Shown here piece by piece: positions 6,401 to 26,215 of a stretch of DNA of 32,395 bases; within the stretch, counting starts at the first letter, position 1, and each line of letters begins with the position of its first letter. Origin of the DNA: an uncultured Bacteroidales bacterium (lineage in GTDB: Bacteria > Bacteroidota > Bacteroidia > Bacteroidales > UBA932); contig ONOI01000023.1 in NCBI GenBank assembly GCA_900319375.1, positions 1-32,395 of the forward strand, written 5' to 3'. Both the position numbers and the translations under genes were made by a program. The notes beneath the pieces are model-generated. The model did no database searches and had not been told where the DNA came from. It saw nothing but the letters and a program-made list of their open reading frames with translations.

Positions 6401-6639
6401 GTCTGAAGAATATCGAGCTTTCATATACCTTCAACAACATCGCTATTATGAAACGCCTCGGCATCAGCTCGATGAGGGCTTATGTCAGCGGATACAACCT
6501 TCTGACCCTCTTCTCGGATCTCGCCGATATCGACATAGACCCTGAGGAGCAGACCGGTTCTGCCAACGCAAACGGCGAGTACATCTACAAGTATCCTAAT
6601 GTAAGGATCTTCAATGCCGGATTCAACATCTCATTCTAA
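3436..6639 (+). CDS. SusC-like TonB-dependent outer-membrane transporter (SusC1)
   Basis: 1067 aa, the usual SusC size. A Sec signal peptide (MKKTLWTILLVFLCLTALAA) is followed by a carboxypeptidase-D regulatory-like domain at about 25-100 (GKVIDAGTGEPLAGASVIVKG) and a plug domain with the family motifs LVDGVERSFF (near 186) and ITVLKDAASTAVFGVRGANG. A 22-strand barrel follows, ending in a terminal Phe (NISF). A DLNHDGKIDGDD calcium-loop-type motif lies near residue 878, common in SusC proteins. It would import oligosaccharides using TonB energy with the SusD encoded next. susD1 follows after 15 nt. The exact ligand cannot be inferred. Confidence 0.95.
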   Translation: MKKTLWTILLVFLCLTALAAPDIEYRGKVIDAGTGEPLAGASVIVKGTLIGAITDNDGQFVLPVPSDVKNIVLEVSYISYSTLEVKPASRTGLVFQLSDDQNFLEAVQIVAYGSQRKTSITGAITSIGTEELLKSPSGSVANSLAGALTGISSIQSSGQPGAEDPVIYVRGSGSLTNQASMPLILVDGVERSFFQMDPNEIANITVLKDAASTAVFGVRGANGVILVTTNRGEQGKAKINFSSSFGVTQPLRHLTTTTSYEHAKIFTEAQLSDNLYAENTPLTFSEMATEMFRTGADPIMFPNVNWDEYIFNKLSFQTQHNITVSGGAERVRYFVSFGYLYQDGMLKSFENYNSNYTYNRYNYRANVDVDITPTTLLKINIGGRVGIRHEPNGYGSNIWQYITWCTPYSSPGFIDGHFTKPILGDFIPIDTGMSGIDLYYGYGYNEETANTLNLDLQLSQNLDFITKGLSASIKGAVNSNYSLYVNRTPTAATSRWQGVNYKGHYTQPGMKMDNPMYDNTHVFITSGVEHLDEPLSYASYSGRGRDWYLEGSLNYSRKFGEHEVNGLLLYNQSKSYYPSYFTEIPTAYVGYVGRITYNYKRKYLADFNVGYNGSENFAPGYRYGFFPAGSVGWVISAEPWMEGASNVVDFLKVRASYGLVGNDKYSGARFLYLNGSWNPAHDDSRFGNWGTWQFGSLYSGTMLQDAIENAVGNPIVSWEKCLKQNYGIDVVLFGQKLSITADYFREHRYDILSTRNTLPDIADISLPMLNLGIVDNHGYELSTSWNHKINSDFSYHITGNLSFSRNKIIYMDEVEPNEPYMAQTGRSTGLSYGLIFDRYLNEGDFNEANELLTTEKGGTLPSITLGNPRPGDAMFKDLNHDGKIDGDDCTFFGYGQRPEYVAGLITGFNWKNFGVSVQFTGAWNASRQLGIEYMEPYGMTNTRGLLKYLADGRWTPENQNSRFPRITFLNKNWYTMSSNIWLMDASYLRLKNIELSYTFNNIAIMKRLGISSMRAYVSGYNLLTLFSDLADIDIDPEEQTGSANANGEYIYKYPNVRIFNAGFNISF

Positions 6640-8710: not shown

Positions 8711-11491
8711 ATGACTACGATGAGAAAATATATACTGACTACATTAGCGATAGCATCCCTTGCCTGTCCGGGTCTCCGGGCTCAGGAATCGAAGCCGGAT
8801 TCAATCGCTCTTGGATACAACATTTTCCAGAGTAAGGAGGCCAGCTCCGCTGCGGTCGGGGTGATACGCGGCTCTCAGATCGAAAGCTCTTCCCAGCACC
8901 AGATCCTCAGTGCGCTGTATGGAGAGCTTGCCGGTCTTGGAGTCTATCAGGCCGGTTCGACGGCTAATCCGGACGACTGCTATCCTACCGTCAATGTCCG
9001 TGGAAACGGATCCTACAGCGGCAACCATGTCCTCGTCCTGGTAGACGGCGTGGAGCGCAAAGCATCGTTCGTAGATGTGCGCGAGGTCGAGAGTGTCACT
9101 GTCCTTAAAGACGCGGCATCCCTTGCCCTCTACGGAATCAGGGGCGCAGACGGCGCCATCCTCATTACGACAAGACGCGGAGGGACAGACGCCATCAAGA
9201 TCAAAACGGGTTATACCTTCGGAGTTCAGGCCCCCTTCAGAGTCCCTCAGATGGCCTCACCCCTCGAGTATGCGTCTGCAGTCAACGAGGCCAGGGTCAA
9301 TGACGGTCTCTCCCCTCTTTATTCCCAGACCAATCTCGATCAGATATCGGCAGGAAACTCCTTCATCCCTACCGTAGACTGGCAGAATCTGGTACTAAAG
9401 AACCTGGGCTTCGACAACGATGCCTTCATTTCCGTAGACGGACGTTCGGACAACACCCGTTTCTATGTTTATGCCGACTACAGGAGTAACCGCGGTTTCT
9501 TCAAGAATACGGGTATTATAGACGGCCTCAGTTCCCAGAGCACATACGACGCCCTCAAGTTCCGCTCGAACCTTGATATAGCGGTAACCCGTTCGACCAA
9601 TGTTGCGGTCAATCTGTCGGCCCGAATCCAGCAAAAGGGAGAGCCCGCCCTGGGCAGCAGCCTTGAAAAGCTTTACGCAGCTCCCTCGGTAGGATTCCCG
9701 GTAATGTACCACAACATCTGGGCTCAGTCTGCAAAATACGCCAACCCGGTCCACGATATTCTGGGTACAGGAGAAGCGAAAATCTTCTCCAGGATGCTCT
9801 CTGCAGACCTCGTTATTACTCAGGACCTTTCTGCGATAACGGAAGGCCTGAGCGCTGAGGCTGCCATCTCATATGACAACTCCGCCGACATCAAGGATAC
9901 CAGAAGTTTCGGAAGTTCATACTATGTCTTTACCCCCGTGTTCGAGGGCGGAGAGCTGGCCGATTACTCGGCCGCCAGGTACGGCAACGATACCGGAATG
10001 AGCTTCTCAAGCTATCTGTCATATCAGTTCATGCATGTCAATGCCAGGGCTAAGATAGCCTACGACCGCAGCTTCGGGGCCAATCACATCGCTTCCGCCC
10101 TCGTATTCAACCGCGAAAAGCGCAAGAATACCGGAGCAAATACCTCTTATGTCCACCACGACCTGGTTTACAACGCCGCATACGACTATGCCGGTAAGTA
10201 TCTTGCCAGCGTTACAGCCTCTTATTCCGGAAGCAGCTATATGCCCCGCGGCGACAAATACCGCTTCTACCCGGCTGCTTCGCTTGGATGGGTGGCCTCT
10301 AAAGAAGATTTCCTGAAGGATGTAGACGCTGTAAACTACCTCAAAGTTCGCGGCTCGTATGGTCTGGTCGGAATGGATGCGAACCTGGACTGCGATATGG
10401 ATATCCAGTTCAACGGCTCGGGCCTTTCTTATATCTTCATCTCTCCTACCGTGATCAACGGTATGAAGGAAGGCGCGCTGCCCTCTACTGGAATTCAGCC
10501 CGAGCTCGATGCCAAGGCCGACCTTGGACTTGAATTTACGCTATTTGGCGGCCTGAGCGGCGAGATCGATCTCTTCAGTAACACCAGAACCAATCTCCGC
10601 ACTATCTCAGGCAATGTCTACTCAGGCGTACTCGGCATAGGCGTAGGAGACGCGTTCGACGGCAAGGTAGTCAACGATGGAGTCGAAGTAAGTCTGGGAT
10701 GGGACGGCAAGATAGGCGAAGTCAGCTATTTCCTTAAGGGAAACGCAAGCCTTGTAAAGAACAGGATAGAGAAGATAGCAGAAGAGTATGTCCCCTATGA
10801 CTATATGTACATAACCGGACATCCTATCGGCACCTTCTATGGTCTTGTCTCAGAGGGCTTCTATCAGGAGTCTGATTTCGACAATGAAGGAAACCTTCTT
10901 CCCGGAGTCGTTCGCAGCACCTTCGCTTCCGTACGTCCCGGAGACATCAAGTATAAGGACCTCAACACAGACGGCAAGATAGACAACTACGACTATAAGT
11001 ATCAGCTCGGATCCAACCTCCCTGAGCTCTACTACGGCTTCCAGCTCGGCGCCTCATTTAAAGGCGTAAGCTTCAAAGCCGTCTTCCAGGGCGTTTCGGG
11101 TTGTACGATACCTACTGTTCTTACGAGCATCTATCAGCCTCTCTACGGCGGCGACAAGAATATCTCCAAACACTATCTGGAGAATCACTGGAGCGCTGCC
11201 AACACCGAGGCCCGCTACCCCCGCCTGACTACCCTTGAGAATGCAAATAATTTCTTGCCCAGCGACCTCTGGACAGAGGACGGCTCCTTCCTCAAGCTTC
11301 GCGAGGTGGAGCTTCGCTACACCCTCCCGAGCTCTCTTACAGACAAGCTGAAGCTGGGAGAGGCTCAGGTATACCTCAGAGGCAACAACCTCTTCTCCAT
11401 CGACAGTATCGGTATCATGGATCCCGAAGCCGTAGATTTCATTTATCCAACAGCCCGTACGGTCTGTGCCGGTCTTACTGTCAACTTTTAA
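8711..11491 (+). CDS. SusC-like TonB-dependent transporter lacking the N-terminal CarboxypepD-like domain (SusC2)
   Basis: 926 aa. After a signal peptide (cleavage near GLRAQES) the protein goes almost directly to the plug domain (LVDGVERKASF; VTVLKDAASLALYGIRGADG). The roughly 80-residue carboxypeptidase-regulatory-like domain of SusC1 is missing, which explains most of the shorter length. A short segment, LGYNIFQSKEAS, sits where a TonB box and the VGYG-type motif usually lie. The barrel includes a DLNTDGKIDNYDYK loop and ends in LTVNF. It begins 13 nt after susD1. Met4 at 8720 (MRKYILTTLAIAS) gives a cleaner signal peptide and could be the true start. It probably pairs with SusD2. Confidence 0.93.
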   Translation: MTTMRKYILTTLAIASLACPGLRAQESKPDSIALGYNIFQSKEASSAAVGVIRGSQIESSSQHQILSALYGELAGLGVYQAGSTANPDDCYPTVNVRGNGSYSGNHVLVLVDGVERKASFVDVREVESVTVLKDAASLALYGIRGADGAILITTRRGGTDAIKIKTGYTFGVQAPFRVPQMASPLEYASAVNEARVNDGLSPLYSQTNLDQISAGNSFIPTVDWQNLVLKNLGFDNDAFISVDGRSDNTRFYVYADYRSNRGFFKNTGIIDGLSSQSTYDALKFRSNLDIAVTRSTNVAVNLSARIQQKGEPALGSSLEKLYAAPSVGFPVMYHNIWAQSAKYANPVHDILGTGEAKIFSRMLSADLVITQDLSAITEGLSAEAAISYDNSADIKDTRSFGSSYYVFTPVFEGGELADYSAARYGNDTGMSFSSYLSYQFMHVNARAKIAYDRSFGANHIASALVFNREKRKNTGANTSYVHHDLVYNAAYDYAGKYLASVTASYSGSSYMPRGDKYRFYPAASLGWVASKEDFLKDVDAVNYLKVRGSYGLVGMDANLDCDMDIQFNGSGLSYIFISPTVINGMKEGALPSTGIQPELDAKADLGLEFTLFGGLSGEIDLFSNTRTNLRTISGNVYSGVLGIGVGDAFDGKVVNDGVEVSLGWDGKIGEVSYFLKGNASLVKNRIEKIAEEYVPYDYMYITGHPIGTFYGLVSEGFYQESDFDNEGNLLPGVVRSTFASVRPGDIKYKDLNTDGKIDNYDYKYQLGSNLPELYYGFQLGASFKGVSFKAVFQGVSGCTIPTVLTSIYQPLYGGDKNISKHYLENHWSAANTEARYPRLTTLENANNFLPSDLWTEDGSFLKLREVELRYTLPSSLTDKLKLGEAQVYLRGNNLFSIDSIGIMDPEAVDFIYPTARTVCAGLTVNF

Positions 11492-11503: not shown

Positions 11504-13156
11504 ATGAAACGTTACAATAAGTTATTTGTAATCATTGCCCTTGCCGCTCTTGGCCTTTCAGGTTGCCGCGATCTGGATCTCAACGAATCGCAGTACCACA
11601 CCAAGACCTTCCAGTTCGGCAATTTCTCCGAAGTCAAGGACATGATGACCAATGTCTACGGTTATCTTCAGTCCGGTTTCCTCTCCTTCCAGGAGTGTGC
11701 AACCGACGACGCTGTATATGCCAATTCCCCGGATATAGTACTACCCTACTATGATGGAAGCTGGTCCGAGAACAATTTGATTGATGACCAGTGGGGCTAC
11801 TATTATGAGGCTATCCGCGCCGCAAATTATCTTATAGAAAACTGTCCGGAGGATTTCGCCGACGCGAAATGGGACGAGCGCTATAAGGATTATCTGGCCC
11901 AGCTCCAGAATTACCCTTGGGAAGCAAGGGCTCTGAGGGCTTTCTTCCATATGGAACTGCTCAAGCGCTACAACAACATAGTAAAGGCAGACAGAACTTT
12001 CACCAAGGAGGAAGTAAACGATCTGGTTCCCAGTACAAACGGCGAGATAGTGAATTGGATTGTGAGCGAACTTGATGCCTGTATCGAACATCTACCCAGT
12101 ACTTATTCGGATTCCTACTACGCGGAAATAGGCCGCGTCACGAAGGGCTTTGCGATGGCAGCCAAGGCCAGGGTACTCCTGTATGCCGCGAGCCCCCTGT
12201 CGAACCCTTCAAATGACAAGGAAAAGTATTATAAGGCTGCCGCCGCAGCTTCCCAGTTTATCAACTCTACCTCGGAGAAGGCAGTCTATGGCCTTGCAAA
12301 ACAGAGCTTCAATTCGGAAGCAAAGGACCTGATATTCGGAATAAGGGAAGTGTCTGACAACAACTACGAGAAGAACAACTTCCCCGCCGGCTACGAAGGA
12401 GGCCTGTCGGGCATCTGCCCAACCCTGAACCTTGCAGAGGCTTTTGACCTCGCAGACGGTACTCCTTTCGACGAAAGCCTCCATATGGCAAATCTCCTGA
12501 ACCCCTCGTCAAGGGATCCCCGCTACGCGAAGGCGATTATCTCTAATGGCGACCTGTTCAAGGGCCAGACTGTCGAGACCTTTGAAGGCGGACGCAACGG
12601 CTCTCCGGTCGAGAATGCAAGCCCTACCTCATTCTATCTTCGCAAGTTTGTTCAGGAAGCGACCAGCCTTACTGCAGGAAACATTACGAGCTATCCCCAT
12701 ATCTACCCTATCTTCAGGGTCCAGGAGGTCTATCTCAACTACGCGGAGGCACTTTTCGAAGCCACCGGAAATCCCGAGTATACCGGGACTATGGGCGGAG
12801 TCAGCTATACCCTCAGTCCCCGCGCGGCGCTCAACAAGATAAGGACGGTATACTCAATGCCTGACATCCCTGCAGGTCTTTCGGAGGCTCAGTTCCGCGC
12901 AAGACTCAGAAACGAGCGCAGGGTCGAGCTCTGCTTCGAAGGCCACAGGATGTGGGATCTGAGGCGTTGGAAGACCGGCAATCTTACAGTGGATATCTAC
13001 GGACTCAACATAGTTAAGGACGGAGATGATTCTTTCTCCTGTACAAAGAAGAAGGTTCAGACCAGGTACTGGGACGACAAGATGCTCTGGTATCCTATCT
13101 CTGCAGTCGAACTCCACAAAAATCCTAATCTGAATCAGAATACAGGCTGGAATTAA
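11504..13156 (+). CDS. SusD-like surface glycan-binding lipoprotein (SusD2)
   Basis: 550 aa, typical SusD length, lipobox GLSGC (Cys21). Family signatures include PWEARALRAFFHMELLKRYNNI, a KGFAMAAKARVLLYAASPL segment, FRVQEVYLNYAEALFEATG, ALNKIRTVYSMPD and LRNERRVELCFEGHRMWDLRRWK, with a closing NPNLNQNTGWN. It would cap SusC2. Its stop (TAA 13154-13156) overlaps the ATG of the sensor gene by one base, so translation of the two is probably coupled. Sequence differs clearly from SusD1, so the two pairs are unlikely to be a recent duplication and may bind different parts of a substrate or different chain lengths. Confidence 0.95.
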   Translation: MKRYNKLFVIIALAALGLSGCRDLDLNESQYHTKTFQFGNFSEVKDMMTNVYGYLQSGFLSFQECATDDAVYANSPDIVLPYYDGSWSENNLIDDQWGYYYEAIRAANYLIENCPEDFADAKWDERYKDYLAQLQNYPWEARALRAFFHMELLKRYNNIVKADRTFTKEEVNDLVPSTNGEIVNWIVSELDACIEHLPSTYSDSYYAEIGRVTKGFAMAAKARVLLYAASPLSNPSNDKEKYYKAAAAASQFINSTSEKAVYGLAKQSFNSEAKDLIFGIREVSDNNYEKNNFPAGYEGGLSGICPTLNLAEAFDLADGTPFDESLHMANLLNPSSRDPRYAKAIISNGDLFKGQTVETFEGGRNGSPVENASPTSFYLRKFVQEATSLTAGNITSYPHIYPIFRVQEVYLNYAEALFEATGNPEYTGTMGGVSYTLSPRAALNKIRTVYSMPDIPAGLSEAQFRARLRNERRVELCFEGHRMWDLRRWKTGNLTVDIYGLNIVKDGDDSFSCTKKKVQTRYWDDKMLWYPISAVELHKNPNLNQNTGWN

Positions 13157-16100
13157 TGTCTATGAGGAAGGTACTCTCGCTCGCACTAGCGTTCCTTGCC
13201 GTCTGTCTTCAGGCGGCTGCGGGCGATATTGCGTTCAGACCGCTGCCTTCTCAATCCCTTCCTTCGGAGAATGTCCTTTATCTCTATCAAGACAGTGAAG
13301 GTTATCTCTGGGCTGTGACCTATCAGGGTATAGTCCGCTACGACGGCTACGACACAAGACTCTATTTCACCAGAAGCGCTGCAGACGATTATTTCGACAA
13401 TTACCTCCATTCCGTTATAGACTACGACGAGAAGAGCCTTCTAGTTGCTACTGCCAGGGGGCTGTTCTTGATGGACAAGCATTCAGGCAGCGTAGAAAGG
13501 GTAGAGGACGAAGCGCTGAGCAATGTCAATATATCCAGAATGACCAGAGACTCCAACGGGAAGATCTGGATCAGTTCCGACAAGGGAGTGTTCTGCCGCG
13601 GTAAGGACGAAAGCCGCTTTACCTGGGTCGGCCTCTCGGATGCGATTTCCGTTTGTTCAGACTGGCAGGGGGATATCTGGATTACGACCTGGATGAGCGG
13701 CCTGCATCGCTACAGTACCTCGGAAGGCAAGCTTTACTCTTACAACCAGGGCGCCTTGGGCTCAGCCTTTACTCTCTTCCTGGATTCCAAGGGCCGTTTA
13801 TGGGTAGGTACCTGGGGTAACGGCCTTCTGAAAACTGACCCGGCCTCCGCTACCGACGACACTCTCCCCTATCAGCGTTTCTCCCACGATGACAGGCAGC
13901 CCGATACTATCCTCGACAATATAATCTACGATATAAGCGAAGACGAGGAAGGCAACATCTGGATCGGAAGCCGCAGCGGACTGAGTATAATGAGAGAGGG
14001 AAAATTCGTCAATTACTACCCTGACGGTACAGACGAGGGACTCCCCTACAATGAGGTCAACTCCATAGTTAAAACTGCAGATGGCACGATGATGCTTGGC
14101 CTTCTGGGAGGAGGCATCTGCATAGCCGAATCAGACCAGTCTTCATACTCAACTATCAAGCTGGAATCGATCCGGGCTAAATACAAGACCAATTCGGTAA
14201 AGAACATCTGCTACACGGGTGACGGCATTTACTGGCTGGGAATCTCCGGCCATGGCCTTAGCCTGTACGACGCCAATACCGGCCGTGAGAGCAATTATTC
14301 GGATCTTCCTGCATTTCGCGGCTTCCCTTCCACCGGTATAGTTGAAACATCGCTGGAGCTGGAAGACAGCGGGCAAATCCTGTTCGGCAGTTATGAATCA
14401 GGATTGTGGGTATACGACTACAAAGACAAGACAGGACGCGTATTCAGCTCGGCCAATTCCGGGCTCGGAGACAACCGCATAAGGGCCCTTGCAAGGGATT
14501 CGAGGGGCGATGTGATAATAGGTACCAGCAGGGGCGTTTACCGTATGTCCAGGGGCGGCGATATCCGCTCCATCGACCCGGAACTCAAGATTATCGACCT
14601 TGCGGTAGATTCGTTGGACTGCATCTGGGCTGCGACTGATTTCAGTGGAATAGTCAAGTTCTCTCCCGAGGGCAAGACCGGTTATCTTAGCGGAAACGAG
14701 CGCGAGCGCAGAAGCTTCAACTCGGTCCTCGTCGATTCTTCATCCAATATATGGGTGGCATCACCCAGAGAGGGCTTGTACCTCTACGACAGGAATTCGG
14801 ATTCATTCAAAGCACTCGAAGAACTCGCCTTCCTCGGGCGCAGAAACATAAACAACCTCGCCCAGAGCCCCGACGGACGCATCTGGATTACTGCAGACAA
14901 CCAGCTTGCCTCTTTCCTCTACAGCGACGGCTCGTTCGAGAGCGTGTGGTTCGAAAGCCTCGACGGAGTCTCGTTCAACATGAATACCTCCGCCTACCTG
15001 CCGGATTCCGGCCGGATGGCCTTTGGAAGTACGCGCGGCATAGTCTGTTTCCCTTGTATGCAGAGCCCCTCTCCTAAGGGCTACGAGAGCAGAGCCTCCA
15101 TTACGGATATAGAGCAGAATCAGAGGGATGTTACGGTAAGCTTCTCCCTGATGGATTTCAGCCCCCACAAAAACGGTATTTATCGTTACAGGCTGTCCCG
15201 TAAAAACGACAGACGCCGCTCCGAGGGCTGGACTATTATAAGCGCAGAGAGCAATAAAGCATCGTTCCGCAATCTCAAGCCCGGCCGTTACATCTTCGAA
15301 GTATCGGGTTCAAGGTTCGGAGACAAGACGCCCGGGGCAGTAAGCAGTCTGGAGATATATATCCCCCAGAACCCATGGCTTTCGTGGTGGGCTTTCCTGA
15401 TTTACGCAATTCTCCTTTTCGCTGCCGTCTTCTTCCCTGTCCGTATCACAAGAGAAAGGATTGAGATGAAAAGGCGCATTGCATACGAACAGTTCAGGGC
15501 CCAGAAAACAGAAGAAATCAATCAGGCGAAGCTCAGTTTCTTCACCAACGTTTCCCATGAATTCCTTACCCCTCTGAGCATTATTCTCGCTTCTATCGAA
15601 AGTCTTGATCCCAAGACCCAGAAAGACAAGAATGTAACTGCGATAATGAGTTCGAACGCCATCCGCCTTACTCGCCTTGTCCAGCAGGTACTGGATTTCA
15701 GAAAGGTAGAGAGCGACAATATGAGACTCAAGGTATCCGAAGGCGATGCGGCGGAATTCATAGGACACTGTGTGGAGGCTTTCAAGCCCCTGGTCCGCAA
15801 ACGCAATCTTACTATTACCTATACTTGCGATCCTACATCGATAAAGGGTTGGTTCGATCCGGACAAACTGGATAAGATTATCTACAACCTTATCTCCAAC
15901 GCAGTCAAGTATACGCCTGAAAACGGTACTATTTCAGTTGAAGCCAGACTCGCCTCAGACTCTCTTATCGTCAATTGTACAAACGGCGGCAAGGTGATGA
16001 GCAAGAGTACTATCTCAAAGCTCTTCCAGCGCTTCTATGAAGGCGATTACCGCAAGTTCAACACTATCGGCAACGGTATCGGTCTTTCTCTTGTCAAAGA

Positions 16101-17052
16101 CCTTGTCACTATCCATAAGGGTACCATCAAGGTAGAAAGCGCAGAGAGTATAGGTAACAGGTTCAGTTTTACTATCCCTATTTCTCAGTCCAGCTACAGC
16201 GAGACCGAAACCGATCAGGAAAATCCCAAGAACTCTTCCCTGCCTCTGGCTCTTACGATAGGTGAAGACGTAATAAAGGAGAATTACACGGTTCTTTGTG
16301 TGGATGACAGTCAGGACCTGTGTGACCTTTTCAACGTAATCCTCTCCAAGCGCTTCAATGTTATAACCTGCGGCAGCGCCGAGGAGGCGATAGAAATCCT
16401 CTCCGGGAATCCCGTTGATGTTGTAGTGACTGACGTCATGATGCCGGGAATGAACGGAATGGACCTTTGTTCCTACATAAAGGAACATATCGAGTACAGC
16501 CACATCCCTGTGATCCTTCTTACGGCCAAAAAAGACGATGATTCCAGCATCGAGGGCTATCGTCATGGGGCAGACGGCTATCTTACCAAGCCCTGCAATT
16601 TCGCAGTGCTCTCGGCTATGATAAGCAACCTGATGAGAAAGCGCGAGAAGCAGATTGCAGACCTGCGCACCCAACTCGTTTTCGAGGTAAAAGACGGCGA
16701 GTATACCTCTATAGACAAACAGTTCCTCGAAAAGGCCGTAGGAGTAGTTGGCGACCACATCTCCGACGAGTCGTTCAGCCAGTCCGATTTCGCGGCAGAG
16801 ATGGCTGTATCGAAGACAGTACTCACAGAGAAGATGAAGAGCCTTACCGGCTTTACCCCGGTAGCGTTCATAATAAATACGAGGCTTGCAGTAGCCTACA
16901 AAACCATTCTGAAAGAAACGGGCAAGATCAGGGTCTCGGATCTGGCATATTCTGTAGGATTCGCAGACGCCAAATATTTCAGCAAGTCTTTCAAGGCTAA
17001 ATTTGGGAAATCTCCCAAGGAACTTATAGACGAAGTAAAGGAGAGAAGATGA
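13156..17052 (+). CDS. Hybrid two-component system sensor kinase/AraC regulator (HTCS)
   Basis: 1298 aa. After a signal peptide (1-22) come repeated propeller blades with the Reg_prop pattern D.xGxxWxGT..G (e.g. LYQDSEGYLWAVT, LFLDSKGRLWVGTWG, DEEGNIWIGS), then a Y_Y_Y-type domain (about 655-735). One membrane helix (about 742-762, WLSWWAFLIYAILLF) leads to a HisKA box FFTNVSHEFLTPL (His801). The HATPase_c domain has NLISNAVKYTP (from 911) and GNGIGLSLV (from 972). A receiver domain has VVVTDVMMPGMNG (Asp1093), and the protein ends in an AraC-type HTH (about 1195-1298). It senses a glycan fragment in the periplasm and activates PUL transcription. All catalytic residues are intact. It overlaps susD2 by 1 nt and the GH3-GH127 gene by 4 nt, so it lies inside the operon. 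Met3 is an alternative start. Confidence 0.96.
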   Translation: MSMRKVLSLALAFLAVCLQAAAGDIAFRPLPSQSLPSENVLYLYQDSEGYLWAVTYQGIVRYDGYDTRLYFTRSAADDYFDNYLHSVIDYDEKSLLVATARGLFLMDKHSGSVERVEDEALSNVNISRMTRDSNGKIWISSDKGVFCRGKDESRFTWVGLSDAISVCSDWQGDIWITTWMSGLHRYSTSEGKLYSYNQGALGSAFTLFLDSKGRLWVGTWGNGLLKTDPASATDDTLPYQRFSHDDRQPDTILDNIIYDISEDEEGNIWIGSRSGLSIMREGKFVNYYPDGTDEGLPYNEVNSIVKTADGTMMLGLLGGGICIAESDQSSYSTIKLESIRAKYKTNSVKNICYTGDGIYWLGISGHGLSLYDANTGRESNYSDLPAFRGFPSTGIVETSLELEDSGQILFGSYESGLWVYDYKDKTGRVFSSANSGLGDNRIRALARDSRGDVIIGTSRGVYRMSRGGDIRSIDPELKIIDLAVDSLDCIWAATDFSGIVKFSPEGKTGYLSGNERERRSFNSVLVDSSSNIWVASPREGLYLYDRNSDSFKALEELAFLGRRNINNLAQSPDGRIWITADNQLASFLYSDGSFESVWFESLDGVSFNMNTSAYLPDSGRMAFGSTRGIVCFPCMQSPSPKGYESRASITDIEQNQRDVTVSFSLMDFSPHKNGIYRYRLSRKNDRRRSEGWTIISAESNKASFRNLKPGRYIFEVSGSRFGDKTPGAVSSLEIYIPQNPWLSWWAFLIYAILLFAAVFFPVRITRERIEMKRRIAYEQFRAQKTEEINQAKLSFFTNVSHEFLTPLSIILASIESLDPKTQKDKNVTAIMSSNAIRLTRLVQQVLDFRKVESDNMRLKVSEGDAAEFIGHCVEAFKPLVRKRNLTITYTCDPTSIKGWFDPDKLDKIIYNLISNAVKYTPENGTISVEARLASDSLIVNCTNGGKVMSKSTISKLFQRFYEGDYRKFNTIGNGIGLSLVKDLVTIHKGTIKVESAESIGNRFSFTIPISQSSYSETETDQENPKNSSLPLALTIGEDVIKENYTVLCVDDSQDLCDLFNVILSKRFNVITCGSAEEAIEILSGNPVDVVVTDVMMPGMNGMDLCSYIKEHIEYSHIPVILLTAKKDDDSSIEGYRHGADGYLTKPCNFAVLSAMISNLMRKREKQIADLRTQLVFEVKDGEYTSIDKQFLEKAVGVVGDHISDESFSQSDFAAEMAVSKTVLTEKMKSLTGFTPVAFIINTRLAVAYKTILKETGKIRVSDLAYSVGFADAKYFSKSFKAKFGKSPKELIDEVKERR

Positions 17053-20000
17053 AAAAGAGTTTGATCGGTCTTTTTGCTCTGGCTTTTTTATCCGCACTCA
17101 ATTCCTGCAACCCAGGCGTGCGCTATACCGAAACCGATTACGGCCAGTTCAGAGTGATATCTCAGAAGGGAGGGCGTACGCTCGGATACTCCCCCGCCTC
17201 CGGAATATCGATACTTAACTCAGACGGATACGGTTTCAAAGATCTGGACAGGGACGGAGAACTCGATCCCTACGAAGACTGGCGTCTCAGTTCCCGAAAA
17301 AGAGCCGAGGACCTTGCATCCAAACTCTCCATCGAAGAGATAGCCGGCCTGATGCTCTACAGCAGCCACCAGGCCATCCCTACGGACGATTACGGTTTCT
17401 GGTCGTCTACCTACAACGGGACTATCCTCAGGCTCAGCGGCCTGCCTAAATCGGCCCTCAGCGACAAGCAGAAGGCCTTCCTTGCCGACGACAACCTTCG
17501 CGCGGTCCTTATCGTCCGCTCGGAAACCCCGCGCATGTTCGCCGAGTGGAACAACAATGCCCAGGAATTCTGCGAGGGCCGGGGCCACGGCATCCCGGTC
17601 AACATCAGTTCGGACCCGCGCCATGAAGTCGGGACGGTGGCCGAATTCAACGCCGGATCGAGCGGCACTATCTCCAAGTGGCCGGCTCCGCTGGGACTGG
17701 CTGCCACCTTCGATCCCGACCTGGTCCGGGGTTTCGGCCGGATTGCAGCGGTAGAATACCGGGCTCTCGGTATAGCGACCGCCCTTTCGCCGCAGGCGGA
17801 TCTTGCAACCGATCCGAGGTGGGCCCGTGATTATGGGACTTTTGGCGAGGATCCGTATCTCGCGGCCGACCTGACCAAGGCCTATATCGACGGTTTCCAG
17901 GAATCCGAGGGCTGCGAGCAGATCGAAGACGGCTGGGGCTTCGGGAGCGTCAACACGATGGTCAAGCATTGGCCCGGCGGAGGTGCGGGAGAAGGCGGAC
18001 GCGACGCCCACTACAGCTTCGGTAAGTACTCTGTCTATCCCAATGACAACGTAGGCCAGCAGATTATCCCCTTCGTCGAGGGAGCGTTTAAGCTGGACGG
18101 TAAGACGGGCTCTGCTTCGGCGGTGATGCCTTATTACACTGTCTCCTATGGGCTGGATCCTTCGGGAAACAACGTAGGCAATAGCTTCAGCGAGTACATT
18201 ATCAACGAAAAGTTGAGAGACCAATACGGTTTCGACGGCGTTGTTTGTACCGACTGGGGCATAACCCACGATTATTACAAGGTCGAGGAGGCATACGGAA
18301 AGCCCTGGGGTGTAGAGACGCTTTCTGAGGATGAGAGACATTACCGTGTCATCAAGGCAGGCGTAGACCAATTCGGCGGCAACAACGACAAGGGCCCCGT
18401 ACTAGCCGCCTACAGGAAGTGGTGCGATGAGTTTGGGGAGAAGAGCGCCCGCGGGCGCTTCGAACGCTCGGCGGTCCGACTTCTGATGAACATGTTCCGA
18501 ACCGGACTTTTCGACAATCCTTATATCGATCCAGATTATACCGAGCGTACCGTTGGAAAGGCGGAGTTTATGGAAAAGGGCTTTGAGGCCCAGCTCAAGT
18601 CCGTTGTGATGGTCAAGAACCGTTCGAATGTTCTCCCGGTCGCTGCGGGTAAGAAGGTATGGTTCCCCAGGCGTTTCGACAGCGAGAAACAGACTTTTCT
18701 TAACGGCTCAACCGGTTCTGAAAGCTGGGTCTACCCTATCGACACGGCTATCGTAGGCAGGTATTTCACTCTTGCCCAGACTCCTGAGGAGGCGGATTTC
18801 GCCCTTGTAATGGTTCGGAGTCCTCAGAGTGGCTACGGCTACGATCTGGCAGACCGCATGAAGGGCGGAAACGGTTATCTTCCCATCAGCCTTCAGTACA
18901 ATGATTATACAGCTGATTCGGCCCGAGAGAAGAGCATTGCGGGAGGCGACCCGCTGGAGAAGTTTGACAACAGAAGCTACAAGGGAAAGACCGTCAGGAC
19001 TTCCAACAGGACGGATCTAGACCTGGTGAAGGCAACCCGCAAGGCTATGGGAGATAAGCCCGTAGTTCTCGCAGTAGCGGCAGACAATCCCTTCGTCCCC
19101 GCCGAGATTGAGCCTTACGCAGACGCAATCCTGATCGGCTTCGGCATTCAGTATCAGGCCATGCTTGACATTGCTTCCGGTAAGGCGGAGCCCCAGGGCC
19201 TGCTGCCGGTCCAGATGCCGGCGGATATGAATACCGTCGAACTCCAGGCTGAGGATACGCCCGGCGATATGCGCTGCTACATCGACTCTGAAGGCAACGC
19301 CTATGACTTCGCCTTCGGCCTCGATTGGAAGGGCGTTATAAGGGACGCGCGAGTAAAAAAGTATGGGAGACCGGCTCCCTGCGTTCAGGCCCCTTATTCG
19401 GCCTTCTATGACGGCGGAATCGGACACATCAAGACCGACGGCTGGCTGCTCGAGTTCCTCAAGAGGCAGCTTTCCGGTATGACCGGCCACCCTGAAGCCC
19501 TTTCCTACCCTTATGATTCCTGCCTCTGGGACGGCGAGAACATCACGCGCAATACCGAATCGTACGGAAGCGACTGGTGGCGCTACGAACAGACGGCCTA
19601 CTATACCGATGGAATGCTGCGTCTGGCCTATATCCTGGGCGATAAAGACCTAATCCGTAAAGGCGAGGCCGGGATTCATTATACCGTAGACCACGCGGAC
19701 TCTACGGGCCGTTTTGCCCACACTACCTTCGGTTTCGCAGAAATGTGGCCGATGGCGGTCTTCTTCAGGGCAATGAAGGCTTATTACGATTACAACCGCG
19801 ACGAGGCGCTTCCCTCCAAACTGGAGAAGCACTACCTCACTCTCAACACCGAGCGCATGAAGTTATGGCGCAATGTAGTATCTATCGAGGGCATGCTGTG
19901 GACTTATTCCCACACCCACAATCCGGCGTTGCTTAACCTAAGCGAAGAAGTATGGAACGCCGGTCTCTTTACCGATCTTACACCGGAAGCCTGCGCTATG

Positions 20001-21275
20001 GATCATGTCCCCTTCATGCACGGAGTTACTTTCTGCGAAGAGCTCAAGCTCCCCATGCTCCTGTATGCCTATACCGGCAAGGAAAGATACAAGGAACTGG
20101 CTCTGAATGCCCACAAAAACCTTCTGCGCGAGCATATGCTCCCCGACGGGGTGCCGGTAAGCGCTGAGGCTCTTTACGGGCGCGGCGAGATACGCAACAG
20201 CCACGAAACCTGCGACATCGCCGATTACACCTGGACCTTAGGCTATTTCCTTCAGATCACCGGCGACCCGGTCTACGCGGATATGATAGAGCGCGCTGTG
20301 CTGAACGCATGTCCGGGCGCTGTGACCAAGGACTTCAAATCTCTCCAGTACTTCTCATCCGTCAATCAGGTTCGGGTGACCGGGGACTCGAACCACAACG
20401 GTTTCTTCCACGGCAGTACCTGGATGGCTTACAGGCCTACCCACCAGACTGAATGCTGCGCAGGAAATGTCCACAGAATAATGCCGAACTATGTAGACAG
20501 GATGTGGATGAGAGGCCCTCAGGGAGAGGTGGTAAGTACTCTTTTCGGCCCTTCAGAGTACTGCTTCGAAGCAGGTGGAAAGACGGCAACTGTAAAAGAG
20601 ACTACGGAGTATCCCTTCGACGAGACCGTAACCTACACTTTCCGTAACCCCGGACGTGCAAAGATTGCCCTCAAGCTCAGGATCCCCCAGTGGTGTGAGA
20701 ATGCCACTCTCAGAATAGGCTTGAGAAAGTACCGCGGAGAACTCAAACCCGGTTCTTTCGTTACCGTTGAAAGGAAGTTCAGCCGCTGGACGAAGGTTCG
20801 TCTGACGCTCCCTATGAAGGTATCCGTAAAGGAGATCGACGGAAAAGGCTACTATGTAGAAAGAGGACCTCTTCTGTATGCGCTCGATGTAGCCGGCAAT
20901 AAAGTCGAGGACACTACGGTCTACGAGAATATGAACGGAAAGGTCCCCGGAAATCCGGATTTCAAGTGTTGGAGCATCACTCCCGCTTCGGAGTGGAATT
21001 ACGCTCTTGTCGGTAGCGCGGAGGATATAGCCCGCGAGGCTAAGGTAAGCGTCTCGAAACGCCGCAAGGGCTATCCTTTCGATCTGGGCAACTCCCCTGT
21101 TACTATTACAGTTCCGGCAAGAAAGATAGACTGGCCCCTTGAAGAGGACAGATTCACTCCTGAAGTTCCAACTCCAGATCAGGTGAAGCCTCTTTCGGAT
21201 GAGATTCATCCCATAACTCTTGTCCCCTACGGGGCAACCGAATTACGAGTATCAGTATTTCCCTTTATCAGATAA
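17049..21275 (+). CDS. GH3 / GH127-like fusion glycoside hydrolase lipoprotein
   Basis: 1408 aa with lipobox LNSC (Cys20). Residues about 30-770 are a family 3 glycoside hydrolase. It starts with a DLDRDGELDPYEDW calcium-type loop, has VKHWPGGG (Lys306-His307) and the nucleophile region GVVCTDWGIT (Asp402), and then the GH3 C-terminal alpha/beta domain and end region. From about 772 to the end is a DUF1680/GH127-type (beta-L-arabinofuranosidase superfamily) module with the zinc-thiolate signature: HETCD (Glu1053, Cys1055) and TECCAGNVHR (Cys1136-Cys1137). In GH127 HypBA1 the equivalent positions bind Zn and include the cysteine nucleophile. Both active sites look intact. It is preceded by AAGGAGA at 17038 and overlaps the HTCS gene by ATGA. 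It probably removes two successive sugars; the linkages are unknown. Confidence 0.88.
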   Translation: MKKSLIGLFALAFLSALNSCNPGVRYTETDYGQFRVISQKGGRTLGYSPASGISILNSDGYGFKDLDRDGELDPYEDWRLSSRKRAEDLASKLSIEEIAGLMLYSSHQAIPTDDYGFWSSTYNGTILRLSGLPKSALSDKQKAFLADDNLRAVLIVRSETPRMFAEWNNNAQEFCEGRGHGIPVNISSDPRHEVGTVAEFNAGSSGTISKWPAPLGLAATFDPDLVRGFGRIAAVEYRALGIATALSPQADLATDPRWARDYGTFGEDPYLAADLTKAYIDGFQESEGCEQIEDGWGFGSVNTMVKHWPGGGAGEGGRDAHYSFGKYSVYPNDNVGQQIIPFVEGAFKLDGKTGSASAVMPYYTVSYGLDPSGNNVGNSFSEYIINEKLRDQYGFDGVVCTDWGITHDYYKVEEAYGKPWGVETLSEDERHYRVIKAGVDQFGGNNDKGPVLAAYRKWCDEFGEKSARGRFERSAVRLLMNMFRTGLFDNPYIDPDYTERTVGKAEFMEKGFEAQLKSVVMVKNRSNVLPVAAGKKVWFPRRFDSEKQTFLNGSTGSESWVYPIDTAIVGRYFTLAQTPEEADFALVMVRSPQSGYGYDLADRMKGGNGYLPISLQYNDYTADSAREKSIAGGDPLEKFDNRSYKGKTVRTSNRTDLDLVKATRKAMGDKPVVLAVAADNPFVPAEIEPYADAILIGFGIQYQAMLDIASGKAEPQGLLPVQMPADMNTVELQAEDTPGDMRCYIDSEGNAYDFAFGLDWKGVIRDARVKKYGRPAPCVQAPYSAFYDGGIGHIKTDGWLLEFLKRQLSGMTGHPEALSYPYDSCLWDGENITRNTESYGSDWWRYEQTAYYTDGMLRLAYILGDKDLIRKGEAGIHYTVDHADSTGRFAHTTFGFAEMWPMAVFFRAMKAYYDYNRDEALPSKLEKHYLTLNTERMKLWRNVVSIEGMLWTYSHTHNPALLNLSEEVWNAGLFTDLTPEACAMDHVPFMHGVTFCEELKLPMLLYAYTGKERYKELALNAHKNLLREHMLPDGVPVSAEALYGRGEIRNSHETCDIADYTWTLGYFLQITGDPVYADMIERAVLNACPGAVTKDFKSLQYFSSVNQVRVTGDSNHNGFFHGSTWMAYRPTHQTECCAGNVHRIMPNYVDRMWMRGPQGEVVSTLFGPSEYCFEAGGKTATVKETTEYPFDETVTYTFRNPGRAKIALKLRIPQWCENATLRIGLRKYRGELKPGSFVTVERKFSRWTKVRLTLPMKVSVKEIDGKGYYVERGPLLYALDVAGNKVEDTTVYENMNGKVPGNPDFKCWSITPASEWNYALVGSAEDIAREAKVSVSKRRKGYPFDLGNSPVTITVPARKIDWPLEEDRFTPEVPTPDQVKPLSDEIHPITLVPYGATELRVSVFPFIR

Positions 21276-22925
21276 ATGAAAGCGTTACGAGCCCTTTTAA
21301 TAGCCGCTGCAGCCCTCAGCCTGCTCTCTTGCGTCAGGGTAACCTGCAGCCAGGTAGATCCACTTGTCAAGGTATTTCCTGAGATGACGGCCTTTCCGGC
21401 CGCTCCCCAGATGCAGTACGCCGCAGGCGGGATGAATGTAGAATTTCAGTTTGCGCTGTATTCCAATTCTCCGGTCAAGAACTTCAGGATCAGCTGCAGC
21501 GAATTCCGCTCGGATGAGGGTAATAAGATCCCCGCTCCGGTGTGTGGTCTTGTCGATTATGTAGGCTGCTCGGAACTCCAGCAGTACCCGGCCCATGACG
21601 CCCTACGCAGCAATTCCGGGCTCTTCCCCGATCCTATTCTGGAACAGGACAGCTACGATCTGCCGGCATTCAGAGCCTTCTGCCCCTGGATTACCCTGCG
21701 TGTCCCCGAAGGGACTCCTGCGGGCATCTACACGGCTACCGTAACTATGAAAGGAAGAGGCTTTTGTTTCAGAGAGCCGGTAAAGGTCAAAGTCTACCCG
21801 TTCGATATGGAGAAACCCTCCTTCGAGAACGTGAACTGGGTCTTCGACTTCCCCGAGGTCCTCACATATTGGAACAACGGCGAGAAGGTCGAGCTTGATT
21901 CCGACCTTTATTGGGAGTATATGGACCAGCTGGCCGAGAAGATGTACGAGGGTCATCAGACTATGTCCATGGTCAATATCTTCAGGGTAGTCGGGATGGA
22001 GCGCGGAAGCGACGGGAAATGGACTTTCGACTGGACTCTTTTCGACAAGCAGGTCCGAGGCTACATAGCCCACGGGGTGGGCGAACGGATCCAGGGCGCC
22101 GAACTTGGCCACAGGCTGAACCCGGTATGGGAAAGCCCGATGGGACTCTTTTATCCGATGGGAGGCGACGAGATTGAGCTGCTGCCCGTCTCCGATCCCA
22201 GGATACAGGAATTCTACTCGCAGTTCCTGCCGGCTTACAAGGCCCATGTCGAGCAGAACGGCTGGGCAGACAGGTGGGTCCAGAAAGTCTGCGACGAGCC
22301 TATCGACGCCAATGCCGAAAGCTACTGCGAGGTCGTCCGCTTTATCCGCCGCTATTGGAAAGACATCCAGGTTCTTGAGGCTCTTCAGACTACCAGGCTG
22401 ACCGGTGCGGTAGATATTTGGGTGCCTCAGCTGAATATCTGGCACAACAACTACGACTTCTACAAGGAGCGCCAGAAGGCGGGAGACCATATCTGGTTTT
22501 ACACCTGCTGCTTCCCTCAGGAAGAGTATCCCAACAGATTTATCGAGCAGCCCCTTCTCAAAGGCCGTATGGTCTACTGGATGGGTTATAAGTACGGCGC
22601 TGAAGGTTTCCTCCACTGGGGCTTCAATTACTGGAATGCAGACTGCTACAAAGACGCCAGCAAGTGGTCAGGCTCTCTGGTACTTCCCGGCGGCGACAGC
22701 TGGATTGTTTACCCAGGCTACCATAAATTCCTGCGTTCGATACGCTTCGAACAGATGCGTGACGGTCTGGAAGACATCACCCTTCTCCAGATGCTTGAGC
22801 GCAAGGATGCGAACAAAGCCCGCGCTGTGTGCGACGGGCTCGTAATGAACTGGTGGGTCTATTGTACTTCCCCGACCCGCTATATGGAGACGAGAAAATT
22901 CCTTCTGGAAGCTCTCAGCGAATAA
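21276..22925 (+). CDS. GH123/DUF4091-like glycoside hydrolase lipoprotein
   Basis: 549 aa, lipobox LLSC (Cys19). An N-terminal beta-sandwich (about 30-180) precedes a TIM-barrel-like domain of the DUF4091/GH123 group: WVFDFPEVLTYWNN, the paired acids VCDEPIDAN (Asp340-Glu341), WVPQLNIW, WFYTCCFP, FLHWGFNYWN and a late LPGGDSWIVYPG ... RFEQMRDGLEDITLLQMLE. GH123 enzymes use a neighbouring Asp-Glu pair in substrate-assisted hydrolysis of N-acetylgalactosaminides. This member shares the pair, but many DUF4091 proteins in plant-glycan loci have no known activity, so the sugar specificity is open. Its ATG immediately follows the stop of the GH3-GH127 gene (0 nt). It is the last gene of the forward operon and converges on the reverse operon. 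Confidence 0.82.
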   Translation: MKALRALLIAAAALSLLSCVRVTCSQVDPLVKVFPEMTAFPAAPQMQYAAGGMNVEFQFALYSNSPVKNFRISCSEFRSDEGNKIPAPVCGLVDYVGCSELQQYPAHDALRSNSGLFPDPILEQDSYDLPAFRAFCPWITLRVPEGTPAGIYTATVTMKGRGFCFREPVKVKVYPFDMEKPSFENVNWVFDFPEVLTYWNNGEKVELDSDLYWEYMDQLAEKMYEGHQTMSMVNIFRVVGMERGSDGKWTFDWTLFDKQVRGYIAHGVGERIQGAELGHRLNPVWESPMGLFYPMGGDEIELLPVSDPRIQEFYSQFLPAYKAHVEQNGWADRWVQKVCDEPIDANAESYCEVVRFIRRYWKDIQVLEALQTTRLTGAVDIWVPQLNIWHNNYDFYKERQKAGDHIWFYTCCFPQEEYPNRFIEQPLLKGRMVYWMGYKYGAEGFLHWGFNYWNADCYKDASKWSGSLVLPGGDSWIVYPGYHKFLRSIRFEQMRDGLEDITLLQMLERKDANKARAVCDGLVMNWWVYCTSPTRYMETRKFLLEALSE

Positions 22926-22970: not shown

Positions 22971-24365
22971 TCAGCCAGAGCTCTTCTGAGCCAGTTTGTC
23001 GCCGTTGTATTCGTAGAGCGACAGATACCCGTCACACACATCTGCAATCGATGAATCGATGGGCTCTTCGTAGAAATACTGCTCGCATACGTAAGGCGGG
23101 AAGGCATTGACGCCATCGAACTTGTCCCAGTGGACGAACTGATCCTCGCTCAGGCGGATGAGGTCATAGGCGTTGCTGACATCGAGCTTCGAAGGCTTTT
23201 CGGCAGTCAGAAGATAGGCGGCATAGGGCGAGGCCGTGAAGTTCGTAAGGTTCATATATGAGGGGAAATCATCCCACATCGAGTCCTCGAACATACCCGA
23301 AAGGTCGAAGCGCGGAAGCGCGACCTCGGTTATGTATTTCTCGGCCTTGAGGCGCGTCTGCTCGAACTCCTTGATCCCGTACTGGCTCTCGAAGCGGCGC
23401 AGGTACTTGAGCGCATGGGCGGGCCAGAGGCGGAAGTGGCTGAGGGACTCCCCTGTCGCGAGATTTACCCTGATCGGCCATGAACCGTCTTCATACTGGA
23501 TTCGGGCATAAGTCCGGGCAACGGCGAGCGAGCGCTCAAGCCATAGGGAATCGCCGGTAGCATCGAACAGGTCGAGGAAGGCTTCGCCGGCTACGGATGC
23601 CTCCAGGACCATCATCTTGGCCCCATTGCCAGCCTGGACCTTCGAAACGTAGGTGTCGCCGTCTTCCGGCACCTCGCCATAGGTGGGTGGCCATCCGGCC
23701 AGCGGAGAGCCCTCCGGCTGAGCGAGCGAGGCCATGTAGCGCCCGGCTCCAAGGGCGGCCTTCATCGCTTCGTCATGGAGCTCGGGAATCTCGCGCGCTA
23801 CCAGACACTCGATGCGGACTGTCGCGCCCACTATCTTACAGACATACGAATTGAAGGGATAGGACATATCCGGCAGCTCGCTCTCCTGCCAATGGCGGGT
23901 AGAGGGCATGTTGTGGATGAAGCGGCAGGCATCCAGGGCGGTCTGTCTATAGCTCTTTGCAGGGCCTTCGAAATCTCCCCTGAAAGGGAAATCCCTTACG
24001 AACTCGCGGGTTCCGGCAAGCGATAGCGAGTCTCCGCGCGAGTTTAGCGCAGTGACGGTGAGTGTTGTCTTTCCTGGAGGAATCAACTTCCATATTCTTC
24101 CAAGGTCATCATTGGGAGTCGAAGACTTGAAAGAGGCTACTTCAGAGCCGTTCTGTCTGACCGTATATCGGTACTCGGCTGCTCCTTCGACCTTTTCGAA
24201 ACCGAAGGCTGGCGCATAGGTGAATTTCTTCGCGTATACGTTCCAATAGGGCTCCCCCTTACGGATTGGTATGGCATAATCGGCCTCCGCCTTTCTGGTC
24301 AGGGCCTCTTTTGAAGAGCAGCAAACAGCAAGGATGGCGGCAGCCGCTAGAAATAATCTTCTCAT
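22971..24365 (-). CDS. (alpha/alpha)6-barrel-like exported lipoprotein, 3'-truncated or frameshifted
   Basis: 464 aa. The signal ends in a lipobox (LAVCC, Cys15 or Cys16). Residues about 25-125 form a small beta domain ([13 protein letters not shown]). Residues about 140-464 are a helix-rich glycosidase-like toroid: [68 protein letters not shown] and [17 protein letters not shown]. The last lines read [19 protein letters not shown] and stop. In another frame the DNA continues as [16 protein letters not shown], which fits a further toroid helix, so a frameshift near 22975-22990 is likely. A final helix pair still seems absent. ATGA overlap with the GH2 gene upstream. No exact family is recognised; catalytic residues are not assigned. 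It may be inactive. Confidence 0.7.
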
Positions 24366-26215
24366 TTAAGTGTCTCTATGATAGATTGGTTGACGTTTTT
24401 CATGTGTTCGATGTCGAACTTGACTACCTCTCTGTCGTAGGTCATCAGGCCGTTGGATTCGAGTTCGACATCTGTAGTCTGGGTGTAGACGGCGGCCGAG
24501 CAGCCGGTCTTGATGAAGATCTTGAGCATCTCTCCGAATTCGTCATAGAGGTCCTGGAGACCCTGCTTATCCTTACCGTAGCTGTAGCCCCAGTTGTCTG
24601 AGGATTCCACCCACATATGGCCCTTTACAGGGAAACCGATACCGCCATATTCGCCCAGGACATTGATGAACTGATGGTCGAAGGCGTTCATCGCCGGACA
24701 GGAATAGTGGTGGACATCGATAATGTCGCCGGCGAAGTGGAAGTTTCCGCCGGAGGCCTCGTTGACAAGGCGGGTCGAGTCATGGGCTCTGGTGAAGGCA
24801 ACTACCTCGCGGGTATCGAACTGGCCCCACGCTTCGTTGAAAGGCACCCAGACGGCAATACACTGGAAAGGCTTCAGGGCGTCGATTATCTCTCCCCATT
24901 CGTGGTAATAGTTGTCCTTCCACTCCTGGGGGATCTTGCAGTCCGAACCGCCTACGAAGCTGTCTCCGGACCACCAGTTAACGGAATTCTCAACCACCTC
25001 TGGATCGCGCCAGGCGGAGTTCTCCCTGTCCGGATCGGCGATGCAGGGCATATCCTGCCAGACTATCATTCCGAGAACATCACACCAGTAGTACCAGCGG
25101 GCGGGCTCTACCTTTACGTGTTTGCGTATCATATTGAAGCCCAGTTCCTTGGTACGGATTATATCTGACTTCAGGGCTTCGTCCGTAGGCGCCGTAAAGA
25201 TCCCGTCCGGCCAGTAACCCTGGTCCAGAGGACCGAACATGAACAGGCGCTCTCCGTTCAGAGCCAGGCGCTTGTATGCGTTCTGATGCGAGCCTGCCCA
25301 TTCGTCCTTTTTCATGGATACTGTGCGAAGGCAGGTGTAGCCATCAATCTTGTCTACCGTCTTCCCTTTCTTGAGAATAGATATTTCCAGACCGTAAATG
25401 CTGGGAGATGAAGGACTCCAGAGTTTTGGATTCTCAACCGCTATCTTAAGTCCTTCGCCGACTACTGAGGAACCGTCCTTAAGAACGGCCTTAATCACAT
25501 CATAGTCGCCTTCAGCATTGACATCAATGGACAGAGTATTTCCGTCCCACACAGTGTTGTATGAGGCGATGTGGGCCGACTTGTTTACAGGCTCAAGCCA
25601 CACAGTCTGCCATATTCCGGAGGTAGGAGTATACCAGATGGCCCTTGGCGAGAGACACTGCTTTCCGCGCGGCTGATAGCCGTTGTCGCTGGCATCTTCG
25701 ACCCTGACCCGGATAGTCTGCCTGCCGCTCTTTCTGAGGACATTTGTTATGTCGAAAGTAAACGGGGCGTATCCTCCCTTATGCTCTCCGACCTTAGTTC
25801 CGTTGACCCAGACTTCTGTTTTCCAGTCGCAGGCTCCGAAATGGAGAAGAACGCTCTGTTTGCGCCATTTTGAAGGAACTGTAAAGGTCCTTTCGTACCA
25901 GAGGGCATCTTCTTTTGTGATGCTTCTCTGAACTCCGGAGAGCGAAGACTCTACGCAGAAAGGCACCAGGATCTTTCCGTCCGGCTTACTGTATTGCTGG
26001 TCTGCTTTAGTTATCGAATAATCCCAGAGGCCATTGAGATTGATCCAGTCCTGCCGGACCATCTGAGGACGGGGATACTCGGGAAGCGGACATTTAGGGT
26101 CTACCTGCTCTGTCCAGCGGGTTTTAAGCCTGTCTCCTGCAGGCGCCCAGCCCTGGGCACATAAAGGAAGTGTAAGCGACAGTGTAAGAATTAATGTAGT
26201 CAGATATCTTTTCAT
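24362..26215 (-). CDS. Glycoside hydrolase family 2 enzyme
   Basis: 617 aa with a Sec signal peptide (cleavage near LPLCAQ). Domain order is typical of GH2. The jelly-roll sugar-binding domain (about 45-205) contains [19 protein letters not shown] and [21 protein letters not shown]. An Ig-like domain (about 210-305) follows. The TIM barrel has [25 protein letters not shown], the acid/base motif [11 protein letters not shown] (Glu461) and the nucleophile motif VLGEYGG (Glu522). Both catalytic glutamates are present, so it should be active, probably in the periplasm. GH2 covers beta-galactosidases, beta-glucuronidases, beta-mannosidases and some arabinofuranosidases; I cannot choose among them. 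It overlaps both neighbours by 4 nt (ATGA), so the three reverse genes are one translationally coupled unit. Confidence 0.92.

Follow-up and report, generated by a model that had tools for sequence, protein, structure and literature searches.

A GH3/GH127-like fusion protein in a polysaccharide utilization locus of an uncultured Bacteroidales bacterium

In this study, we analyzed a 32,395-nucleotide stretch of DNA (the window) from an uncultured Bacteroidales bacterium (assembly GCA_900319375.1, contig ONOI01000023.1). The results showed that the open reading frame (ORF) at 17049–21275 on the forward strand, which has an ATG start and no internal stop codon in its 1408 codons, is a genuine fusion of a GH3 module with a GH127-like module. 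We consider it probable that the 1408-amino-acid product is a two-enzyme lipoprotein of a polysaccharide utilization locus (PUL), that it arose by fusion of adjacent genes, and that, together with a neighboring GH123-type enzyme, it trims two terminal sugars of one glycan containing N-acetylhexosamine (HexNAc).

Architecture and integrity of the fused reading frame

The chain begins with what we take, by eye, to be a signal sequence with a lipobox (MKKSLIGLFALAFLSALNSC). It continues with the GH3 module (17199–19340, residues 51–764), which carries Asp402 at the nucleophile position, a short junction (19341–19388, approximately residues 765–780) with neither a stop codon nor a second signal peptide, and the GH127-like module (19377–21272, residues 777–1408), which comprises a helical barrel and a beta-sandwich part and contains Glu1040, Glu1053, Cys1055, Cys1136, and Cys1137. 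Both halves were checked against the curated profiles of Pfam and NCBIfam. The GH3 N-terminal domain (PF00933) matched residues 136–411 with 104 bits against a cut-off of 27, and the GH3 C-terminal domain (PF01915) matched residues 519–759 with 32.2 bits against a cut-off of 31, covering positions 1–199 of its 200-position model. In the second half, the GH127 catalytic domain matched residues 947–1148 (50.2 bits, cut-off 24.9) and the GH127 middle domain residues 1161–1256 (57.5 bits, cut-off 24.2). Both GH127 scores reach the Pfam cut-offs, a point on which the first-pass annotation of this DNA had made its assignment depend; the best scores among the matches listed in our comparison table are about 366–457 bits. 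The catalytic profile covered only the C-terminal half of its model (positions 182–374 of 376), yet the module is complete, because it aligns over its full length with stand-alone proteins of about 650–670 amino acids (53–58% identity) and its AlphaFold2 model is matched first in the PDB by GH127/GH146 entries. These results confirm the earlier proposal of a complete GH3 and a complete GH127-type module in one ORF. The motifs DWGI (from Asp402), HETCD (from 1052, with Glu1053 and Cys1055), and TECC (from 1134, with Cys1136-Cys1137) lie exactly where that proposal had placed their key residues.

The window's genome is fragmented into 80 contigs, which could favor an assembly join or a frameshift artefact of two genes. 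This explanation has next to no probability, since a second species of the same genus (G227; contig C117, corresponding to record CAMNNY010000117.1 of an uncultured Bacteroidales metagenome-assembled genome, MAG) has the same full-length 1408-amino-acid architecture, the same junction, and the same flanking genes, while differing by about 4% in DNA (96.1% identity across the ORF). Judged from these two assemblies, the fusion is neither a frameshift nor an assembly join, the outcome that would have undone the first-pass reading. The two proteins are 98.6% identical in the GH3 half and 97.2% in the GH127-like half. Nonsynonymous (dN) and synonymous (dS) divergence was 0.0062 and 0.070 in the GH3 part, and 0.017 and 0.255 in the GH127-like part. 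dN is thus well below dS in both parts, which therefore seem to be maintained by purifying selection within the fusion.

The GH3 half is about 60% identical to stand-alone GH3 proteins of about 750–800 amino acids, and at least 26 of the 27 rows in the alignment, among them the window and L034, share Asp402. The nearest solved structures were 9ul7 (phmmer E 3e-94), deposited as a GH3 "beta-glucosidase", and SN243 7qe1 (E 1.8e-62); both share the KH(W/F)PGGG and nucleophile regions with the GH3 half. The PDB chains of 7qe1 and 9ul7 have 759 and 620 residues, respectively, and no GH127-like part. The residue aligned with Asp402 is Asp in 7qe1 and Asn in the PDB sequence of the SN243 variant 7qee, which we read as a nucleophile mutant. 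According to excerpts of PMC9730296, SN243 is a beta-glucuronidase with its best activity on p-nitrophenyl-beta-glucuronide, less on beta-galacturonide, and far less on beta-glucoside, beta-xyloside, beta-galactoside, and alpha-arabinofuranoside. The GH3 half is predicted to be a retaining exo-beta-glycosidase with Asp402 as its nucleophile.

Fold, catalytic site, and placement of the GH127-like half

The AlphaFold2 model of the GH127-like half, made with 41 sequences, had a mean predicted local distance difference test score (pLDDT) of 89.9 and a predicted template modeling (TM) score of 0.94, and it displays the (alpha/alpha) barrel plus beta-sandwich fold of GH127. In a Foldseek search against the PDB, the first 21 matches, at 13–18% identity, were all GH127/GH146 entries, assigned by title or shared sequence in all cases but 5mqo; the TM-score fell to 0.28 at hit 22. 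The best match was 5mqo (TM 0.71), which we take to be BT1003, the aceric acid hydrolase of NCBIfam NF049879. This family gave the only NCBIfam match of the C-terminal half, with a score of 82.4 bits where 950 are required, and assignment to it was rejected; BT1003-like rows, named by motif, also fall on another branch of the tree described below. The GH127 enzymes HypBA1 (3wkx and others) and Ara127N (4qjy, 4qk0) have a similar fold (query TM-scores 0.65–0.72). Their zinc ligands (Glu/Cys), the cysteine nucleophile, and the acid/base glutamate align with positions of the GH127-like half, although Foldseek identity is only 15–17%. The GH146 enzymes (BT0349 5opj, 6yqh; Bll3HypBA1 8k7x) share the same fold and Zn-Cys3-Glu site at 14–15% identity.

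The positions of Glu1053, Cys1055, Cys1136, and Cys1137 were conserved in 48 of 48 aligned rows, and Glu1040 in 46, with Gln in two canonical rows. As judged from this alignment, Zn would be held by Glu1053, Cys1055, Cys1136, and Cys1137, and Glu1040 is the likely acid/base. We predict that this half cleaves glycosides by a zinc-assisted cysteine mechanism, with Cys1136 as nucleophile. The conservation of catalytic residues in both halves, together with a dN well below dS, makes it highly improbable that one half is catalytically dead and acts as a binding module. Of the HypBA1 residues Arg273, His142, Tyr145, and His194, the comparison resolved Arg273. Excerpts of PMC10850190 count Arg273 among four substrate residues in which GH146 enzymes differ; it is replaced here by Thr (HGVT; HAVR in GH127-type rows), and GH146-like rows have Thr as well.

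To place the lineage, we used a midpoint-rooted tree of 48 sequences, consisting of 16 close members, 12 at about 30% identity, and 20 canonical sequences, with the reference groups named by motif and not by CAZy. The 16 close and 12 more distant rows formed one set of 28 with support of 100/100, and the branch between this set and the canonical rows was 3.48 changes per column (+0.72 beyond the midpoint root). The canonical rows split into a GH146-like group (mostly FWCCVG) and a group of GH127-like and BT1003-like rows. The window's module grouped with neither the GH127-like nor the motif-assigned GH146-like rows, and membership in GH127 proper and in GH146 was rejected. On this sequence tree, the C-terminal half is a third deep lineage, roughly equidistant from GH127 and GH146. 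The label "GH127-type" given in the first reading holds for the fold, the Zn/Cys residues, and the Pfam cut-offs, but not for GH127 or GH146 proper, given the separate lineage and the lost Arg273. Parts of PMC5698469 state that GH127 includes 3,6-anhydro-D-galactosidases, so that belonging to the family would not by itself settle which sugar is released.

Distribution and origin of the fusion

We surveyed 299 sampled genomes of the family and 395 of the class. In the family, the GH127-like half had a match at E <= 1e-30 in 49 genomes and the GH3 half at E <= 1e-60 in 59, and both halves lay in one frame only in G000 and G227 (2/299). The class sample yielded 15 other genomes with a match, none with an open frame longer than 841 amino acids there. 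Related places of the GH127-like half numbered 275 in GTDB contigs (records of the window's own genome may have been left out), and the best 80 of these 275 were examined as clade loci; one of the 80 was fused to the same GH3, namely L083, the G227 record. A literature search with hyphenated or spaced names found no GH3-GH127 or GH127-GH3 pair, which other wording may have missed. To call this join unusual, as was done from the sequence at the outset, is fair for this pair.

Evidence on the origin came from locus L092 (CALUKK010000139.1), in which unfused GH3, GH127-like, and GH123 ORFs are adjacent in this order on one strand (ORF starts set mechanically). The GH3 ORF (1077 amino acids, 61% identity to the GH3 half) has an N-terminal extension of about 320 amino acids, and the GH127-like ORF (662 amino acids, 56% identity) follows it after 63 bp. 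L157/G287 has a GH3 from a different subfamily, and a GH127-like ORF lies 16 bp downstream of its end. By profile, a GH3 occurred in 6 of the 80 loci, and it was fused or adjacent in L083, L092, and L157. The C-termini of most stand-alone GH3 relatives fall at ..R(V/T)..KY or slightly beyond it, corresponding to ..RVKKYG in the fusion. From there, the fusion runs through GRPAPCVQ into APYSAF, with which the mature stand-alone GH127-like sequence begins. These results suggest that adjacent operon genes merged, in which case the stop codon of the GH3 gene, the intergenic spacer, and the signal peptide of the second gene would have been lost and a short junction left. The domain order probably reflects gene order rather than order of attack, because L092 has the same order as separate genes; the suggestion that domain order mirrors the order of attack was therefore rejected.

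Joins of relatives of either half to other catalytic domains were also observed: GH3-GH97, GH29-GH3, GH13-GH127-like, a GH127-like module with a SASA esterase, a GH127-domain protein of the wider clade with GH43, a GH127-like module with GDSL and GH97, and an M6 peptidase with a GH127-like module. A Pfam scan of long open frames (850–2030 amino acids) among the family matches took in L070 and L077. In L070 (6632–10642, +), a GH13 cyclomaltodextrinase-type enzyme is fused to a GH127-like module, and the frame in L071 (9471–13535, −) is similar in length and context. Relatives of the GH3 half are fused to GH97 in L076 (6426–10727, −) and to GH29 in L080 (2347–6036, −). In L110 (4399–8400, +), a GH127-like module stands behind an M6 metallopeptidase domain, which hints at glycoprotein substrates; L121 (4269–8258, +) resembles it in length and start, the two features compared. 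In L160 (3335–7571, +), from a Verrucomicrobia MAG, GH127-like, GDSL lipase, and GH97 domains lie in one ORF cut by the contig end.

Such joins, the agreement of domain order with operon gene order, and the restriction of the fusion to 2 of 299 family genomes would also fit a neutral read-through fusion, in which operon neighbors with unrelated substrates came to share one chain. We regard this as unlikely, as two species have retained the fusion, each half showing a dN well below dS, and a GH3 beside a GH127-like gene recurs with a different GH3 subfamily (L157). From the operon history and this recurrence, we infer a shared target molecule for the two halves.

Gene context and the likely substrate

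The fusion lies in a Bacteroidales PUL of a gut-type Bacteroidales genome, with SusC/SusD pairs, carbohydrate-active enzymes (CAZymes), and a regulator. Two tandem SusC/SusD pairs (3436–6639, 6655–8697, 8711–11491, and 11504–13156, all +; Pfam), an arrangement discussed in parts of PMC6499787, are followed by a 1298-amino-acid regulator of the hybrid two-component system (HTCS) type (13156–17052, +), which overlaps the start of the fusion by 4 bp. The reading frame of a GH123-type protein of 549 amino acids (21276–22925, +) begins with the nucleotide that directly follows the stop codon of the fusion. The protein matched 8k2j, an oligosaccharide/monosaccharide-releasing beta-N-acetylgalactosaminidase, with E 2e-100, and has the catalytic DE pair; enzymes of this type and the GH123 DE pair are described in excerpts of PMC11087588. 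On the opposite strand lie a 464-amino-acid protein of unassigned family (22971–24365), a GH2 protein of 617 amino acids (24362–26215), and a 684-amino-acid protein (26212–28266) with no Pfam or PDB sequence match, which by eye resembles a beta-sandwich plus helical-toroid enzyme. The 464-amino-acid protein had no Pfam or PDB match, and its AlphaFold2 model (pLDDT 55.5) was too poor to be used for a structure search. Its relatives occur in 26 of the 299 family genomes, including its own; genomes of one other genus have 2–4 matches each, frequently adjacent to one another. The edge ORFs at 299–1384 (−) and 1612–3363 (+) had no Pfam match above the cut-off.

We then compared the 80 clade loci with 40 canonical loci drawn from the matches listed in the comparison table. 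With queries from the window and L088, a source that favors the clade, GH20 or GH123 was found near 12 of the 80 clade loci and near none of the 40 canonical loci (Fisher P = 0.008). Queries from L079, which lies outside the 80, gave 13/80 versus 0/40 (P = 0.0045), or 12/79 versus 0/40 (P = 0.008) when the fusion record L083 was excluded. More common in the controls were HTCS (4/80 vs 7/40), GH2 (1/80 vs 4/40), and GH97 (4/80 vs 5/40). L088 and L091 contain a copy of the 464-amino-acid protein (72–73% identity) near their GH127-like genes, as well as a GH31, two GH123-type proteins, and a GH20, identified by domain scans in L088 and by similarity only in L091. Among 20 loci around relatives of the GH3 half, a GH78 lay beside or near the GH3 in 3, one of which also had GH20 and GH123 relatives. 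This context gave no clue to the specificity of the GH3 half; a small set of labels was applied, and it revealed no partner common to most of the 20 loci.

Alternatively, the fusion could be a plant-cell-wall enzyme, with the GH127-like half a beta-L-arabinofuranosidase and the GH3 half removing the sugar that comes next in a branch of arabinan, extensin, or arabinogalactan protein. The Zn-Cys3-Glu residues, which excerpts of PMC10850190 describe in GH127/GH146 beta-L-arabinofuranosidases, and the rumen and hindgut samples among the relatives' records are consistent with it. We consider it fairly unlikely, since the module forms a deep branch apart from the GH127, BT1003-like, and GH146-like rows, Arg273 is replaced by Thr (as it is in GH146-like rows), GH43 (one query) lay near 1 of 80 clade loci compared with 12 for GH20/GH123, and a beta-N-acetylgalactosaminidase-like gene is directly downstream. 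An arabinan context was rejected on the GH43 count from this single query, and the initial expectation of beta-L-arabinofuranoside substrates found no support. A HexNAc-containing target glycan is more likely than a plant arabinofuranoside.

Several observations weigh against the reading favored here. GH20/GH123 was undetected near 67–68 of the 80 clade loci; with the window/L088 queries, GH20 and GH123 taken singly gave P = 0.03 and P = 0.18; and all these P values are optimistic, because the loci vary in length and taxonomic origin and do not represent independent samples. No GH127-like neighbor was seen at the 20 inspected GH3-half loci, where longer antisense ORFs can hide genes (in 4 of the 20, such an ORF hid the GH3 ORF itself). 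Close GH127-like relatives in G022 and G287 come from genomes with no match to the window's GH3, and in G286 the GH3 match is on another contig. The GH123 ORF of L092 (572 amino acids) is only 33% identical to the window's GH123. Finally, for the GH3 acid/base, the alignment offers only conserved candidates, such as Glu637.

On balance, we favor a two-enzyme lipoprotein acting on one HexNAc-containing glycan. In Bacteroidetes, the surface-export signal consists of acidic residues after the lipobox cysteine. The fusion is most likely periplasmic, because NPGV follows its lipobox cysteine without such a signal. Oligosaccharides would be imported through SusCD; the retaining GH3 site with Asp402 would take one sugar and the Zn-cysteine site another, so that the fusion and the adjacent GH123 would trim oligosaccharides of the same glycan. 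Joining the halves would fix their ratio and co-localization. The CE15-GH8 protein, reportedly a multicatalytic CAZyme of Bacteroidetes, likewise has two catalytic domains in one PUL protein, of different families.

The uncharacterized lineage of the C-terminal half is of more interest than the join itself. It is possible, though we propose this tentatively, that this half represents an unclassified, family-level lineage of Zn-cysteine glycosidases acting on a sugar (furanosyl or deoxy) in HexNAc-containing microbial or host glycoconjugates, and that its joining to GH3 commits it to a single substrate. If so, the fusion makes the activity of this lineage findable. Only a few cysteine glycosidases have been described, to our knowledge all with plant or algal sugars as substrates. 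With its 275 related places in GTDB, the same Zn-cysteine residues, a changed substrate residue, and neighbors that include HexNAc glycosidases, the lineage would extend cysteine-glycosidase chemistry, and the fusion and the unfused L092 operon would form a natural pair for asking whether physical linkage helps.

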